Of a stretch of DNA of 63,064 nt, positions 23,081-28,696 are shown piece after piece. How positions within the stretch are numbered: the stretch's first letter is position 1; each line of letters begins with the position of its first letter. The position numbers and the translations under genes are program-made. The notes below the pieces were generated by a model. That model searched no databases, was not told the origin of the DNA, and was given only the letters and a program-made list of their open reading frames with translations. This DNA is from an uncultured Clostridia bacterium (lineage in GTDB: Bacteria > Bacillota > Clostridia > Oscillospirales > Ruminococcaceae), in NCBI GenBank assembly GCA_947626755.1, contig CANQTP010000012.1:1-63064 (forward strand), in the 5' to 3' direction.

Positions 23081-24241
23081 ATGCTGAAAAAGAAAAAGCG
23101 GCTCAACCTGCCGAATCTTATAACCTGCATCGCGTTTTTCGGGATACTGATATTTATGGCTGTAATGACGATTGTCCTCCCGAAACAGGATTTCCTTGAA
23201 ATGGAAAACAAATATGCGGAAAAACTTCCTAAATTTTCTGCAAAGGCTGTTTTTAACAGGACGTATATGAATAAAACGGAAAATTACATTTCCGACCATT
23301 TTGCGGGAAGGATAGGCTGGATAAAAGCCCGCACCGTTCTGGAAACTTCACTTGGAAAGCGGGAGCGGAACGGCATTTACATTCTTGATGACAGACTTGT
23401 GGAAAAAATTCCCGAACCCGACTATTCTTCCGTGGATAAGGCTATTGCGGCAATAAACAAATTTGCGGAGGGAAATGACATTCCCGTATTTACAATGATA
23501 GTTCCCACTTCGGCGGAAATTTACGCCGATGAACTTCCCGAAAATGCCCCAAGCGCCGATCAGAAGGAATTTATAAACTATGTTTATCGGAATCTGAGCA
23601 GATCTGTAAATACAATAGATGTTTACCCTGTAATGTTTTCCAACCGTGATGATTATATTTACTACCGCACGGATCACCATTGGACGACAAAGGGAGCGTA
23701 TCTTGCTTATGCCGCTGCGGGAAAGAAAATGGGTTATGATCCCGTTCCTCTTGAACTTTTTGATGTAGAACACGCGGGAATAGATTTTATCGGAACATTT
23801 TACTCAAAGACCCTTTATGACGGCGTGGAAAAGGATATAATGGATATTTACCACCTTAACGGGGAATATCAGGTAACGGAAGTTGCGGTAACATCGGATT
23901 TCGGAAAAGATCCCGAAATTTACGAAAGTATGTATTTCCGTGAATATCTTGACAAAAAAGACAAATATGCGGCATTTCTCGGAACAAATGTTCCTATAGT
24001 TGAGATAAAGTCGGAAAACAGCGGCGGAAAACTGCTGATAATAAAGGATTCCTATGCGCACTGCTATGCTCCGTTCCTGACACAGCACTATTCGGATATA
24101 ACTCTTGTTGATATGAGGTATATCAATATGTCGCTTAATAAAGTAATCGACGTCAGCGGATACGATCAGATACTGATACTTTACAATGCATCATCTTTCA
24201 TGACAGATACGGATATACGCAAGCTTGGTTACGGTCAGTAA
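23081..24241 (+). CDS. DHHW-family extracellular partner of the MBOAT acyltransferase
   Basis: 386 residues with one N-terminal membrane anchor (about 17-34) and an outside AlgX/AlgJ-like (SGNH-fold) domain. The hallmark DHHWTTKGAYLAY (about 205-217) gives the family name; IIKDSYAHCYAPFL carries the nucleophile Ser, and VPTSAEIYADELP is another conserved block. It probably finishes acyl transfer from the MBOAT protein onto a surface polymer. The polymer is unknown. Confidence 0.9.
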   Translation: MLKKKKRLNLPNLITCIAFFGILIFMAVMTIVLPKQDFLEMENKYAEKLPKFSAKAVFNRTYMNKTENYISDHFAGRIGWIKARTVLETSLGKRERNGIYILDDRLVEKIPEPDYSSVDKAIAAINKFAEGNDIPVFTMIVPTSAEIYADELPENAPSADQKEFINYVYRNLSRSVNTIDVYPVMFSNRDDYIYYRTDHHWTTKGAYLAYAAAGKKMGYDPVPLELFDVEHAGIDFIGTFYSKTLYDGVEKDIMDIYHLNGEYQVTEVAVTSDFGKDPEIYESMYFREYLDKKDKYAAFLGTNVPIVEIKSENSGGKLLIIKDSYAHCYAPFLTQHYSDITLVDMRYINMSLNKVIDVSGYDQILILYNASSFMTDTDIRKLGYGQ

Positions 24242-24445: not shown

Positions 24446-24495
24446 ATATTTTAGGTATGCAATGATGTTGAAAACAGGACTTGGAGGTCTTAGGA

Positions 24496-25149
24496 TTGGA
24501 AAATACTGTTATATCGGCTTCCATACTCAGCGCGGATCTCTGCGATCTTGGCAGCGAGATCGGACGGGCGGAAAAAGCCGGCTGTAAATATATCCATTTT
24601 GATGTTATGGACGGTATGTTCGTGCCGAATATAAGCTATGGGATACCTGTCCTCGGATCGGTGTCAAAACGCACGGAATGTGTTCTGGACGTTCATCTCA
24701 TGATAACCGATCCCATTAGATACATCAAGGCTTTTGCCGAAAACGGGGCGGATATTATAACATTTCATCTTGAAGCCTGTTCGGACGCAAAGGCAGTCAT
24801 TGACGAAATACATTCCTGCGGGAAAAAGGCAGGGATCTCAATAAAACCCGGGACTCCTGCTTCTGCGCTTGAGCCGTACCTTGAATTTGCGGATATGATA
24901 CTGATCATGACAGTCGAACCCGGTTTCGGCGGACAGGGCTTTAATTATGATATGCTTGATAAAATTTCCACAGTGAAAACAATGCTTTCCGAAAGGGGAT
25001 ATGATGTTCCCATTGAAGTTGACGGCGGCATAAACGAAGTCACTGCTCCTCTTGCAAAAAAAGCAGGCGCGGAGATCCTTGTGGCGGGTTCATACCTTTT
25101 TAACGCTCCCGATATGGGTACAGCGGTCAGAAAAATTCTTGATCAGTAA
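24496..25149 (+). CDS. rpe: Ribulose-phosphate 3-epimerase
   Basis: Interconverts ribulose-5-phosphate and xylulose-5-phosphate in the pentose phosphate pathway. 217 residues from a TTG start, chosen because GGAGGT stands 7 bases upstream and the protein then begins with the usual 'SASILSADL'. Metal and catalytic blocks are seen: HFDVMDGMFVPNISYG, DVHLMI, MTVEPGFGGQGF and EVDGGIN. It is first in a run with rnfD (17-base gap); a metabolic link to those genes is not evident. Confidence 0.95.
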   Translation: MENTVISASILSADLCDLGSEIGRAEKAGCKYIHFDVMDGMFVPNISYGIPVLGSVSKRTECVLDVHLMITDPIRYIKAFAENGADIITFHLEACSDAKAVIDEIHSCGKKAGISIKPGTPASALEPYLEFADMILIMTVEPGFGGQGFNYDMLDKISTVKTMLSERGYDVPIEVDGGINEVTAPLAKKAGAEILVAGSYLFNAPDMGTAVRKILDQ

Positions 25150-25166: not shown

Positions 25167-26183
25167 ATGATGTATTCTAAAAGCGGCAAGACCGAAACAT
25201 CAATAATGACGGATATGCTGATAGTTCTGCTTGTGCTTGCGGCGGTTTCGGTCTATTATTACGGGCTCCGCGCCGCGCTTGTGATAGCGATAACTGTCGG
25301 AGTTTGCTGTATAACAGATTTTATATCCATAAAACTCAGAAAAAAGGATACTGTGGTAAATGATATTTCGGCTTTTATAACAGGACTTACCCTTAGCATG
25401 ATGCTGCCTGCATCTGTGCCGTACTATGAAGCGGTCATAGCGGCTGTATTTGCGATAGTAATTGCAAAACAGGCTTTCGGAGGTCACGGCTGCGAGATCT
25501 TTAACGCGGCGGCGGCGGGTTTCCTGTTCATATCGCTTTGCTTTCCCGAAAATATACTTACATATCCGATGTATTTTGAAAAGATACCGTTTTCTTCGCT
25601 TGTGCCGTCGGATATGCTTAAAAGTTCAATGGTGAAACTTTTTATCACTTCGGGTTCTCCGTCGGTATCGGCTCCGGATCTTCTGGTGGGAAAATTCAGC
25701 GGTCCTATGGGAACAGGCTTTGTGGCGATCCTTCTGGTGGCGGCAGTCTTTCTGGCGCTCAGACGTTCCGTTTCGGCGATAGCACTTTCGGCGGAAGTTG
25801 TCGTTTCGGGAATTGCGGTGTTCCTGCTGAGCGGATTTGATCCGAATGCGGTGCTTACCTTCTTTGCCGGAGGAATGACACTTTTCGGAATGATATTTCT
25901 TTCCTGCGAATACAGTTCAATGCCGCAAACAAGGAGTTCAAGGCTTCTGTACGGGATCCTTGTGGGAGGACTTACAGTCCTGCTGCAATATTATTCCAAA
26001 ACAGAAAATGCCATAGTTTATGCTGTGATAATAGCAGCTCCTTTTGGGATCGAACTTGACAGGAAGGCGCTTTCATTTGCAGAAATGCTTAAAAACAGGA
26101 GAGGACTTTTTTTCAGGAGCAAACCTCTGAAACACGTTCAGGAAACTCTGGATATTCTCGATAAAAACGATGAGGAGAAATAA
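25167..26183 (+). CDS. RnfD-like membrane protein lacking the flavinylation threonine
   Basis: A 338-residue polytopic protein of the RnfD/NqrB family. AIVIAKQAFGGHGCEIFNAAAAGF (96-119) corresponds to the canonical IAKQLYGGLGxNxFNPAMxGY block, and helices continue to about residue 320. In canonical RnfD an FMN is ester-linked to the Thr of 'SxATPL'; here the matching segment is SVSAP (166-170), with Ala169 in the Thr place. The canonical 'TDPVTAS' loop reads CEYSSMP. AGGAGG precedes tandem ATGs. It starts a three-gene set with rnfE and rnfA; rnfB, rnfC and rnfG are absent nearby. Confidence 0.85.
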   Translation: MMYSKSGKTETSIMTDMLIVLLVLAAVSVYYYGLRAALVIAITVGVCCITDFISIKLRKKDTVVNDISAFITGLTLSMMLPASVPYYEAVIAAVFAIVIAKQAFGGHGCEIFNAAAAGFLFISLCFPENILTYPMYFEKIPFSSLVPSDMLKSSMVKLFITSGSPSVSAPDLLVGKFSGPMGTGFVAILLVAAVFLALRRSVSAIALSAEVVVSGIAVFLLSGFDPNAVLTFFAGGMTLFGMIFLSCEYSSMPQTRSSRLLYGILVGGLTVLLQYYSKTENAIVYAVIIAAPFGIELDRKALSFAEMLKNRRGLFFRSKPLKHVQETLDILDKNDEEK

Positions 26184-26185
26184 CT

Positions 26186-26818
26186 TTGGATAAGGATCGG
26201 GACATTGTTAAGGAAAACAGCTGCAAGACAATAATTTACAATGCCATGCTTAAAAAGAATCCCATGCTTGCAAGCGGAATGGTGATAGCCCCGGTCATAA
26301 TGACTGTGGACAGCCTTCCGAGAGCATTGACATTGGCGGCGTCTTTTTCGCTGATAACGTTTTTCACGCTGCTCATATCATCTTTTGTGCCGAAAAGCAT
26401 TGTATATACGGTAAGAATAATAATGTATGCGTTTATAGGAGCAATGGTATATGTTCCTGCGTCTATTGCACTTGAATATTTTATTCCCGAGCAGATAGAA
26501 CGCATGGGGATATTTTTCCCGCTTCTCATTATAAACAGCTTTGTGATATACCGTTCGGAATCTATTTTCTTCCTTGAATCCAAGGGGAAAATGATGCTGG
26601 ATATATTCTTCTGCATTCTCGGATATGATGCGGCAGTCCTGCTTTACGGCATTATCCGTGAAATAATAGGTTCGGGAACTGCATGGGAGACTATAATAGG
26701 TATGCCTGTTATATTTTCGGTATTTGCTGAACCCTTCGGCGGATTTCTGCTGTTAGGGATAATGGCGGCACTGCTGAGAGTCGTTCTGCTGACTATCAAG
26801 AGGGTAAAGCAAAAGTAA
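26186..26818 (+). CDS. RnfE-like membrane protein lacking the Fe-S cysteines
   Basis: A 210-residue six-helix protein of the RnfE/NqrD family, starting at TTG with GAGGAG 8 bases upstream and 2 bases after rnfD. Family landmarks remain: FFPLLIIN, the charged 'GRAEAFA' site as YRSESIF, and the highly typical IIREIIGSGT. The two cysteines that hold half of the intramembrane [2Fe-2S] cluster in RnfA/RnfE are gone: 'GLCPLLAVT' reads GMVIAPVIMT (31-40), and 'TNCIVVGRAE' reads INSFVIYRSE, with Ser118 in the Cys place. Confidence 0.85.
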   Translation: MDKDRDIVKENSCKTIIYNAMLKKNPMLASGMVIAPVIMTVDSLPRALTLAASFSLITFFTLLISSFVPKSIVYTVRIIMYAFIGAMVYVPASIALEYFIPEQIERMGIFFPLLIINSFVIYRSESIFFLESKGKMMLDIFFCILGYDAAVLLYGIIREIIGSGTAWETIIGMPVIFSVFAEPFGGFLLLGIMAALLRVVLLTIKRVKQK

Positions 26819-26847
26819 GGACATCTGCGGAAAAGGGAGTATTTTTT

Positions 26848-27441
26848 GTGGAATTAGTCAAAAATATAATATTGACAGCATTTACATCAATTATTATTGA
26901 AAATACCATATTTTCCCGTGCTTTGGGAACAAGTACGCTTATTCTTGTTGCAAAAAGCCGTAAGAATCTGTTCGGATTCGGTCTGAGCGTGACATATATT
27001 ACGGCAATTGTAAGTATCATCACATACTTTGTGGGGAAGATATTTGACCTTAACGGCGATGCATATATATATGTTCCTCTTGTGTATATATTCATTCTCG
27101 GATCTGTGTATATACTTACACTGCTGTGCTTATGGAGATTTGCTCCGCCGCTGTTCCTTAAAATACGGAAATATGTTCACATTTCCGCGTTCAACTGTGC
27201 AGTTCTCGGGGCAATGTTCATAATTTCCAAATATTGTGTGACATTTATCGATTACCTTGTTCACGGGATAGGGATAGGTCTGGGATTTGTACTTGCGGTT
27301 TATATGACAGCGGTGGTCTATGATAAAATTTATTCGGAAAAAGCTCCTTACGCGTTCAGGGGATACCCGCTTATGATGATCTATCTTGGGATATTGGGTA
27401 TGGCGTTCTGGGGATTTTCGGGACATATGATGAATTATTGA
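26848..27441 (+). CDS. RnfA-like membrane protein with one Fe-S cysteine lost
   Basis: A 197-residue six-helix protein of the RnfA/NqrE family, GTG start with AAGGGAG upstream, 29 bases after rnfE. It keeps FNCAVLG (115-121, Cys117 retained), the 'PFRG' element as AFRGYP, and the C-terminal AFWGFSG. The first cluster cysteine is lost: 'FLGLCPFMG' reads ALGTSTLIL, Ser29 replacing Cys and Thr30 replacing Pro. With RnfE lacking both of its cysteines, the normal four-cysteine [2Fe-2S] site cannot form. The complex is predicted to be membrane-embedded but not redox-active in the Rnf manner. Confidence 0.85.
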   Translation: MELVKNIILTAFTSIIIENTIFSRALGTSTLILVAKSRKNLFGFGLSVTYITAIVSIITYFVGKIFDLNGDAYIYVPLVYIFILGSVYILTLLCLWRFAPPLFLKIRKYVHISAFNCAVLGAMFIISKYCVTFIDYLVHGIGIGLGFVLAVYMTAVVYDKIYSEKAPYAFRGYPLMMIYLGILGMAFWGFSGHMMNY

Positions 27442-27466: not shown

Positions 27467-28696
27467 ATGTCAAGACGTGTAGGCAGAAAGATCTACAGGG
27501 CAAATGCCAATTACAGAAAACAGAAAGTGCGGAAGGCATTCAAGATATTGTTTTTTATAATAATTCTTGCTGCGCTTGTATTTCTCGGATATTGCGTTGC
27601 ACGTCCCGTATTTGACTATCTTTCCGACAGAAACGAAGGCAGCACATCGGCGGATACTGCTCCCTGGACGCCTCCGAAAGCCCCCGAAGATGATGAGGAT
27701 CTTACCGAAGGCGAAGAAGATAACGAAGAAGTTTCTGATGATAAGGATAATTCCGATCAGCAGAAAGTTCAGGTCGGCGGTTTTTCTGCGTACAGACTTC
27801 CCGTTTCTGCGCTTGGATCCGAAGATGCTTTGAAAAATGCTCTTGAAGCGGTCAAAGAAGGCGGTTACACGGCTGTAATAGCAGTCCTTAAAGATGAGGG
27901 TGGAAAAATTTATTATAAGACAGGTTCGGAACTGGCGCAAAGTGATGAAAATGCTGTTGTGGGAAGTATGTATGCAGGACAGATCTGCGCTATGATAAAA
28001 CAGGCGGGATTTACCGCTATTGCCGAAATAAACCTTCTGGAAGACAACAACCGTTACGGAGAAAAAAGAGACGGTTCATATCATTTTGCCATAGATGATT
28101 CTACATGGTTAGATAATTCCGTTGCAAACGGCGGAAAGCCGTGGCTTTCTCCGTTTGATACAAATACTCAGAGCTATGCGGCTTATCTTGCAAATGAAGT
28201 TTCTTCGGGCGGATACGAATATGTTATATTTGACGGACTTACTTTTCCGCCGTTCAGAAATTCCGATCTTAATCACATCGGCACAGAAGTTCAGTCGGCG
28301 GACAGATACAAGGCTCTTGTGAATATTGAAAATATTGCTGTGGGTGCGCTTGACAAGGATAAGACATTGCCTCTGATAATGACATCTGCGGGAGATATTC
28401 TGAGCGGAAAGGCAGAAGTTTTCAAGCCTTCCGAGTTATCATCGGAGATGATCGCAGTAACTTATGTTCCTTCCGAAATAAGCGGGACTGTTATCATAAA
28501 CGGTCAGGAAACGGCAGTTTCGGATATGACTGTTTATGAAAGAGCGGCGGCTGTTTTCGGAGAGGTAAAACGTCTTGCGGGAGAGGGGAAAACCATTGTT
28601 CCTACTCTCAGGCAGAGTGATTTCAGTCAGGCGGATTTTAATGATGTTGTTACGGCTGCAATTGAACTTGGCATGGAATCCTATATAATTTTATAA
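27467..28696 (+). CDS. Membrane-anchored putative glycoside hydrolase (DUF4015-like)
   Basis: 409 residues: a basic N-terminus, a single membrane helix at about 25-47, an acidic low-complexity linker (about 60-100), then an outside TIM-barrel-like domain. AYRLPVSALGSEDALKNALE, YTAVIAVLKDEGGKIYY and YVIFDGLTFPP resemble the DUF4015 putative glycosidase family. No activity has been assigned to this family that I can rely on. It follows rnfA by 25 bases with GGAATGATAGGGAG upstream, so it is probably in the rpe-rnfDEA transcript. Confidence 0.7.
   Translation: MSRRVGRKIYRANANYRKQKVRKAFKILFFIIILAALVFLGYCVARPVFDYLSDRNEGSTSADTAPWTPPKAPEDDEDLTEGEEDNEEVSDDKDNSDQQKVQVGGFSAYRLPVSALGSEDALKNALEAVKEGGYTAVIAVLKDEGGKIYYKTGSELAQSDENAVVGSMYAGQICAMIKQAGFTAIAEINLLEDNNRYGEKRDGSYHFAIDDSTWLDNSVANGGKPWLSPFDTNTQSYAAYLANEVSSGGYEYVIFDGLTFPPFRNSDLNHIGTEVQSADRYKALVNIENIAVGALDKDKTLPLIMTSAGDILSGKAEVFKPSELSSEMIAVTYVPSEISGTVIINGQETAVSDMTVYERAAAVFGEVKRLAGEGKTIVPTLRQSDFSQADFNDVVTAAIELGMESYIIL

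Follow-up and report, generated by a model that had tools for sequence, protein, structure and literature searches.

A stretch of 63,064 nucleotides from an uncultured Clostridia bacterium of the Ruminococcaceae (assembly GCA_947626755.1, contig CANQTP010000012.1; hereafter the window) carries, at positions 25167-27441 of the forward strand, three consecutive genes of the RnfD, RnfE and RnfA types, here designated D', E' and A'. We put at roughly one in two the probability that this trio derives from an ancient Rnf paralog as a membrane core which no longer performs redox chemistry, most likely translocates an ion or solute, and serves a DUF4015 protein encoded immediately downstream. The non-redox character is well supported; transport by the trio and its partnership with DUF4015 are what we infer.

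An earlier note on this DNA had read the three genes as homologues of RnfD, RnfE and RnfA in that order, and strong Pfam matches bear this out. D' (338 residues, 25167-26183) matches PF03116 with an E-value of 3e-54, and both E' (210 residues, TTG start, 26186-26818) and A' (197 residues, GTG start, 26848-27441) match PF02508, with E-values of 1.9e-24 and 1.8e-27, respectively. All three nevertheless fall far under the cut-offs of the corresponding NCBIfam models, with D' reaching 129.9 bits for rnfD (TIGR01946, cut-off 207.05), E' 61.2 bits for rnfE (TIGR01948, cut-off 213.4) and A' 86.5 bits for rnfA (TIGR01943, cut-off 229.3). A structure model of D', with a predicted local distance difference test score of 88.2, gave template modelling (TM) scores of 0.76-0.85 against RnfD of 7zc6 and 9eri, so that the RnfD fold is predicted to be intact.

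What sets the trio apart is the loss of redox ligands that canonical loci retain in full, and it is from this difference that we deduce a loss of electron transfer. Ligand numbering and roles were taken from the available portions of PMC11889175, PMC9588780 and PMC12174285. Residues were counted in canonical loci of the same order, Oscillospirales (n = 46 for D, 43 for E and 16 for A, the fetched loci being short), and in two groups of paralogs, namely 33 in which an RnfC-like gene, C', precedes D and 63 window-type loci that are C'-less. One locus, L137, is tallied as C'-less although the open reading frame (ORF) before its D has SLBB and 4Fe-4S matches; it is probably C'-bearing by these matches, and its reassignment would give 34 and 62. 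The first cluster Cys of RnfE is replaced in the window by Ala35 (26288-26290), and is Cys in 43/43 canonical loci, 0/33 C'-bearing paralogs and 1/63 C'-less paralogs. The second is replaced by Ser118 (26537-26539), at a column that is Cys in 43/43 canonical loci and in none of the 33 and 63 paralogs, and Ser in 45/63 window-type paralogs. In RnfA, the first Cys gives way to Ser29 (26932-26934); this column is Cys in 16/16 canonical loci and in no paralog (0/33 and 0/63), and Ser in 60/63 of the window type. Only Cys117 of A' remains, within Asn116-Cys117 (27193-27198). Its column holds Cys in 16/16 canonical, 20/33 C'-bearing and 43/63 C'-less loci, and the preceding Asn116, equivalent to N112 of A. 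woodii RnfA, is kept in 62/63 window-type paralogs. The note's reading that RnfE lacks both cluster Cys residues and that RnfA has lost one of its two is therefore correct.

Counted across 97 paralogous loci, the window included, one of the four cluster Cys residues is present in 65 and none in 32, and all four are present in 16/16 canonical loci for which both RnfA and RnfE were in hand. Because no paralogous locus has more than one of the four, a four-Cys [2Fe-2S] cluster of the Rnf kind is, judging by these sequences, not possible in the paralogs. The flavinylated Thr of RnfD is also missing. Its column is Thr in 46/46 canonical loci, 0/33 C'-bearing and 3/63 C'-less paralogs, and in D' it lies near Ser154 (25626-25628), a position that is uncertain as the loop aligns poorly; the register was set by later alignments and by a HMMER alignment to 7zc6. 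Here the note was right that no Thr is present, but its assignment of the site to Ala169 in 'SVSAP' was mis-registered, as that segment aligns with the later 'MAP/AAP' segment. Its description of the trio as stripped of redox centres likewise holds for the cluster Cys residues and the flavin Thr, but not entirely for the non-covalent riboflavin site. Asn113 of D' (25503-25505) is kept, and corresponds to N123 of A. woodii RnfD, described as a riboflavin contact in the available text of PMC11889175; the column is Asn in 46/46 canonical, 32/33 C'-bearing and 48/63 other paralogs. Glu248 (25908-25910) occupies the riboflavin/ion Asp position, D249 in A. woodii, which is Asp in 46/46 canonical loci and Asp or Glu in 32/33 C'-bearing and 55/63 other paralogs. 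At the third position, Asn has become Ala291 in the window.

Two residues of E' stand out by their retention. Arg77 (26414-26416), the equivalent of A. woodii RnfE R67 in an ion pair, is Arg in 61/63 window-type and 22/33 C'-bearing paralogs, and the cation-site Glu125 (26558-26560), equivalent to E115, is Glu in 58/63 and 6/33, respectively.

The window genome also possesses a regular Rnf. A complete rnfCDGEAB operon with all ligands present lies on another contig of the same genome (G000:C2; L005 4954-9987). Partner genes were sought in this genome by profile searches. The FMN_bind domain occurs in a single copy genome-wide, which is the RnfG of the canonical operon, and no linked FMN_bind gene, RnfB, RnfC or RnfG was seen among the neighbours of the trio, although for RnfB no genome-wide search with its own profile was made. 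Besides the canonical RnfC, the C' profile recovered four short pieces resembling ferredoxin, and no match lay on the window contig. NqrA, NqrC and NqrF were likewise not linked to the trio among the neighbours examined. The note had stated that rnfB, rnfC and rnfG are absent from the flanks and that the immediate neighbours are rpe and a DUF4015 protein, and had named a linked rnfB, rnfC or rnfG, or intact residues in close relatives, as grounds for abandoning its view. Neither was found: ligand losses are common to the relatives (at most one of four Cys in 97 loci), and its prediction of an Rnf-derived module unable to carry electrons by the Rnf route agrees with a loss that is general in the paralogs.

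The trio is accompanied by DUF4015 with great regularity. In the window, a DUF4015 protein of 409 residues is encoded at 27467-28696 on the forward strand (PF13200, 50.6 bits against a cut-off of 27), as the single DUF4015 copy in the whole genome, and the rpe gene for ribulose-phosphate 3-epimerase, which we treat as context and not as a member of the complex, lies upstream at 24481-25149 on the same strand (PF00834, 2.1e-69). As the gaps are short (17 base pairs (bp) for rpe-D', 2 bp for D'-E', 29 bp for E'-A' and 25 bp for A'-DUF4015), the five genes look co-transcribed. Among named loci, which are the best 80 of 132 confirmed relatives, D, E and A follow in order on one strand in 79/80, rpe is upstream on the same strand in 73/80, DUF4015 is downstream in 73/80, and C' precedes D in 23/80. 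A convergent mecA sits between rpe and the cluster in 46/80, and was not found there in the closest relatives of the window (L058-L074). When nonredundant loci are considered, DUF4015 lies downstream on the same strand in 79/91, and within 300 bp in 76 of these; for 9 of the 12 that lack a DUF4015 match, the fetched stretch ends within fewer than 300 bases. DUF4015 is thus the constant operon partner of the trio, where the note had listed it as a flank. It does not accompany canonical rnf in general: 2/15 canonical loci fetched for other reasons have it (see below), and the window genome's own rnf operon is without it.

A model of the DUF4015 protein comprises an N-terminal arm, one long N-terminal helix, a low-confidence linker and a TIM-barrel-like domain. 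From the model, the long helix may be read as a membrane anchor. The domain resembles the Cwp19 functional region and the C-terminal hydrolase domain of PgaB at 8-11% identity, differing from both in the long helix and linker ahead of it. Gly146, Asp193, Trp214, Pro229 and Pro261 are invariant in 52 sequences, which would fit a retained function, and a hydrolase role is predicted.

The paralogs fall into two subgroups that have kept different parts of Rnf. In an alignment of 17 rows, C' is missing the Gly-rich segment for NAD and flavin mononucleotide (FMN) and the greater part of the RnfC N-terminal domain. The one C' that was scanned has an SLBB domain and two 4Fe-4S motifs and does not match RnfC_N, and its match to the Nuo51 FMN domain, at 30.7 bits, is just below the 31.2 cut-off; the eight Cys residues of the 4Fe-4S motifs are invariant in 15 C' sequences. 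The RnfC-clasp motif at the N-terminal arm of D occurs in 45/46 canonical, 25/33 C'-bearing and 1/63 C'-less loci, and is absent in the window. The riboflavin triad is complete in 30/33 C'-bearing but only 22/64 C'-less paralogs, the window not among them owing to Ala291. The reverse is seen for the RnfE ion pair: equivalents of R67 and E115 (Arg or Lys with Glu or Asp) occur together in 62/64 C'-less and 5/33 C'-bearing paralogs, and in 43/43 aligned canonical RnfE sequences. Fisher tests give 4.8e-17 for the ion pair and 8.1e-8 for the triad, ignoring relatedness. In C'-less loci, Arg77, Glu125 and Asn116 rank within the most conserved 3-7% of columns by entropy, with the A' Ser29 column at 6% and the E' Ala35 column at 9%. 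In C'-bearing loci the same A/E columns rank at 24-98%, except Asn116 (6%) and Asn117 of E' (14%).

As the ion pair is kept in 62/64 and former Cys columns have been re-fixed, the RnfA/E core of the window type is not decaying, with Arg77, Glu125 and Asn116 kept and Ser29 re-fixed. The window's subgroup has lost C' and the RnfC-docking arm, and its riboflavin site is much reduced; the C'-bearing subgroup, with its trimmed RnfC, 4Fe-4S motifs and riboflavin residues, is perhaps a half-Rnf. C'-bearing rows form one side of a branch in the D tree, and the subgroup labels need 2 and 3 changes on the joined D/E/A tree. Because so few changes are needed, the contrast reflects a few evolutionary events and not ninety. 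Among the C'-bearing loci are L093, L103, L105 and L055, with an RnfC relative carrying two intact 4Fe-4S motifs before D'. In two loci of Anaerotruncus colihominis (L114:2924 and L116:2915) the C' ORF is about 1015 residues, far longer than most; for L116, the part matched by SLBB and 4Fe-4S stops at about residue 372, and the rest matches no Pfam family.

The trio is widespread and its genes are under strong purifying selection. NG86 ratios of nonsynonymous to synonymous substitution rates (dN/dS), computed between the window and four close relatives for D', E', A' and DUF4015, were 0.038-0.142 in 16/16 comparisons, and are rough since dS is high, up to 3.3. A search with the window D' protein found RnfD-type genes in 138/148 family genomes, with at least two matches per genome being the rule. 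The A' profile reached at least 150 bits in 102/148 (counted from the table), and scored lower in at least 6 further genomes, on contigs where D' was found. Some genomes have paralog-type matches without a canonical-scoring RnfD, such as G102 (94% complete), most of the others being less complete. In an order-wide sample the same 150-bit threshold was reached in 24/29 genomes of the window's family and 0/218 elsewhere. Restriction of the paralog to one family was considered and dropped, since divergent members in f21 and f22 score like canonical RnfA. A class-wide DNA pattern matched 7/393 genomes, all within the order; as it misses many true members, including about half of those in the family of the window, little can be concluded from its absence elsewhere. 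Carriers include Anaerotruncus colihominis, A. massiliensis, Massilioclostridium coli, Merdimmobilis hominis and Marasmitruncus massiliensis. On these sequence comparisons we judge the paralog to be old and widespread in the family.

How might such a module work? D', E' and A' would still assemble as in Rnf. The available text of PMC12174285 describes RnfA/E as working by alternating access and relates RnfD to urea and ammonium transporters; a Foldseek search with the D' model gave urea transporters and AmtB as weak matches (E-values of 0.013 and worse, TM about 0.2-0.44). The E'/A' pathway would be kept, its centre lined by Ser29, Asn116, Asn117 and Ser118 in place of the iron-sulfur cluster, and gated by the Arg77/Glu125 pair, and through it Na+ or H+ ions, or a small solute, would pass down a gradient. 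The single-helix DUF4015 protein would dock at the former position of RnfG, with its hydrolase-like domain acting on an N-acetylglucosamine polymer of the cell envelope, and the trio would supply it with energy, ions or an anchor. We offer only tentatively the fuller version, in which a redox-driven ion pump was converted, in an ancient gut-type lineage, into a cofactor-free machine whose alternating-access RnfA/E core, lacking the iron-sulfur switch, powers or supplies a surface protein resembling a cell-wall hydrolase, and the sister subgroup kept only the output half (a trimmed RnfC and riboflavin-bearing RnfD).

Several observations weigh against a transporting, DUF4015-serving trio. A' has lost two positions of the cation path described for A. 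woodii, with RnfA E88 replaced by Leu and T111 by Phe, each in 59/63 window-type paralogs. Conservation of Ser118 and Cys117 in C'-less loci is only moderate (entropy ranks of 24% and 35%), the Fisher tests on the subgroup contrast take no account of relatedness, and D' retains Asn113 and Glu248 and so may still bind riboflavin. No downstream DUF4015 is seen in L130, L135 and L136 (3/82 nonredundant loci with room for it), nor was it found for the C'-bearing loci L186, L187 and L192 of f22 within the stretches fetched. Conversely, DUF4015 persists without Rnf core genes in L231 (described below), and so can do without the trio. The loss of the cation-path residues and the persistence of so constant a partner in L231 would also suit a pure scaffold that moves nothing and merely anchors or positions the DUF4015 surface domain. 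We consider this somewhat unlikely, as the modelled DUF4015 protein has a long N-terminal helix of its own and needs no three-subunit anchor, and as several A/E positions, which would be buried by comparison with Rnf structures, are strongly constrained, and not surfaces alone.

It is improbable that the trio is still a redox system, in which D' binds riboflavin and passes electrons from an unlinked donor outward without the RnfA/E cluster or RnfG, as a half-Rnf. The complete riboflavin residues in 30/33 C'-bearing paralogs, the eight invariant Cys of C' and the retention of Asn113 and Glu248 in the window all speak for it, but the window has lost C' and the docking arm, is among the many C'-less paralogs without the full triad, and has no spare FMN_bind protein in its genome. 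More doubtful still is that D', E' and A' replace their counterparts in the cell's canonical Rnf, giving an uncoupled or regulatory form. Both sets do coexist in the window genome, and genomes in the family sample mostly have two or more RnfD-type matches; however, the RnfC clasp is lost, the RnfB-facing basic R154 of RnfA is kept in 0/64 window-type paralogs, and in genomes such as G102 the paralog occurs without a canonical-scoring RnfD. Finally, the missing subunits and ligands could suggest that a duplicated operon is in decay, or that the sequence has errors. This we find scarcely credible: a pseudogene or sequencing-error reading is ruled out by dN/dS of 0.04-0.14 and identical losses over 97 loci, and A' is found in most of the family genomes. 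A non-redox membrane core working with DUF4015 is the reading that we prefer.

Some indication of origin comes from complete rnf operons that carry DUF4015. It directly follows rnfB in 2/15 canonical loci fetched for other reasons (L184 and L196), one of the 15, L188, ending too soon to tell. A further set, L212-L225, was picked since DUF4015 and rnfA matches lay close together, and 14/14 show DUF4015 after rnfB. All 16 DUF4015-linked canonical loci possess C, D, A and B and are complete in their ligands, and B and DUF4015 lie 4-366 bp apart; no G was seen in L184, and E of L220 was dropped as overlapping in one listing, its Cys residues still being read. These loci span the Oscillospirales families f2, f3, f4, f10, f11, f14 and f16, other than that of the window, with the same D, E, A order and 3' DUF4015 as in the trio. 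DUF4015 may accordingly have gone unnoticed as an accessory protein of Rnf. The complete operons of L212 and L213 also adjoin rpe. L231:1452-4416 holds only rpe, a convergent mecA (PF05389, 83.2 bits) and DUF4015 (120.5 bits), in a one-contig genome listed as 100% complete and without a PF02508 match. Taken together, these loci give the impression that an rnf-DUF4015 locus was lost in steps. The D/E/A tree places canonical genes on one side of a branch with support of 100, and does not show the parent canonical lineage of the paralog. In the DUF4015 tree, L212, L213 and L231 group together (support 91) inside a mostly paralog-linked part, whose own forks have support of about 80. Gene position and DUF4015 tree agree, and so suggest descent from an f4 rpe-linked complete operon; direct descent is not claimed, as the D/E/A tree puts the f4 genes in the canonical clade.

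Compared with known systems, the trio shares with the Rnf complex (rnfCDGEAB) homologous D, E and A in the same order, the RnfD fold and, in the window's subgroup, the RnfE ion pair, but it is without linked B, C and G, has lost three of four cluster Cys residues and the flavin Thr, and has DUF4015 added. The core of Na+-NQR is also homologous, but scores of 70.6 (nqrB), 50.0 (nqrD) and 63.8 bits (nqrE) are far below the cut-offs, and the NQR redox ligands and linked NqrA, NqrC and NqrF are absent. The nearest published partial Rnf that we found, as described in the available parts of PMC8238504 and PMC10979944, are NQR/RNF-like systems of two subunits, an RnfD-NqrF fusion without the flavinylated Thr and an FMN-binding partner, with no A/E. 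Their make-up differs from that of the trio, in which D' carries PF03116 alone (Pfam scan, 338 residues) with no NqrF NAD-binding domain fused, there is no FMN protein, A/E is kept and DUF4015 is added. Nqr itself is traced to duplication of an rnf operon with loss of rnfB (PMC4014512, in the text available), a precedent for rnf duplication. The one DUF4015 paper found, PMC12700454, mentions the family in its available text solely as a fusion partner of the YkyA domain, and none of the titles and abstracts found in the openly licensed literature searched describes this gene set.

The two subgroups, as natural variants, would bear directly on a dispute over which part of Rnf/Nqr moves ions, RnfD/NqrB or RnfA/E, that is set out in the portions of PMC12174285 and PMC11889175 available. 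The Na+ path is placed in RnfA/E by PMC11889175 and in RnfD/NqrB by PMC9588780 and PMC10643135, again in the text available. Nature has here separated the two, as C'-less paralogs constrain the A/E ion pair and relax the RnfD riboflavin site and C'-bearing paralogs do the reverse. An old second Rnf core beside a normal Rnf pump in gut-type Clostridia would also amount to a natural test of the membrane parts without electrons. In addition, the uncharacterised DUF4015 family is now tied to Rnf operons, and annotation as an 'electron transport complex subunit' would probably mislead for genes in about two thirds of sampled family genomes (102/148).

Some minor features were noted. Promoter and terminator scans were given no weight; the former found 22 against a shuffled mean of 14.3 (standard deviation (SD) 4.2), which is not far apart, and the latter 13 against 6.5 (SD 2.9). 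In the Ruminiclostridium-type loci L087, L089, L090, L091 and L108, D' is called in an extended form of 430-446 residues. Just 5' of rpe, at 23081-24241 of the window, lies a gene for a DHHW/AlgX-type protein, which may act in acetylation of a surface polysaccharide, and which is kept with its preceding genes in near relatives.

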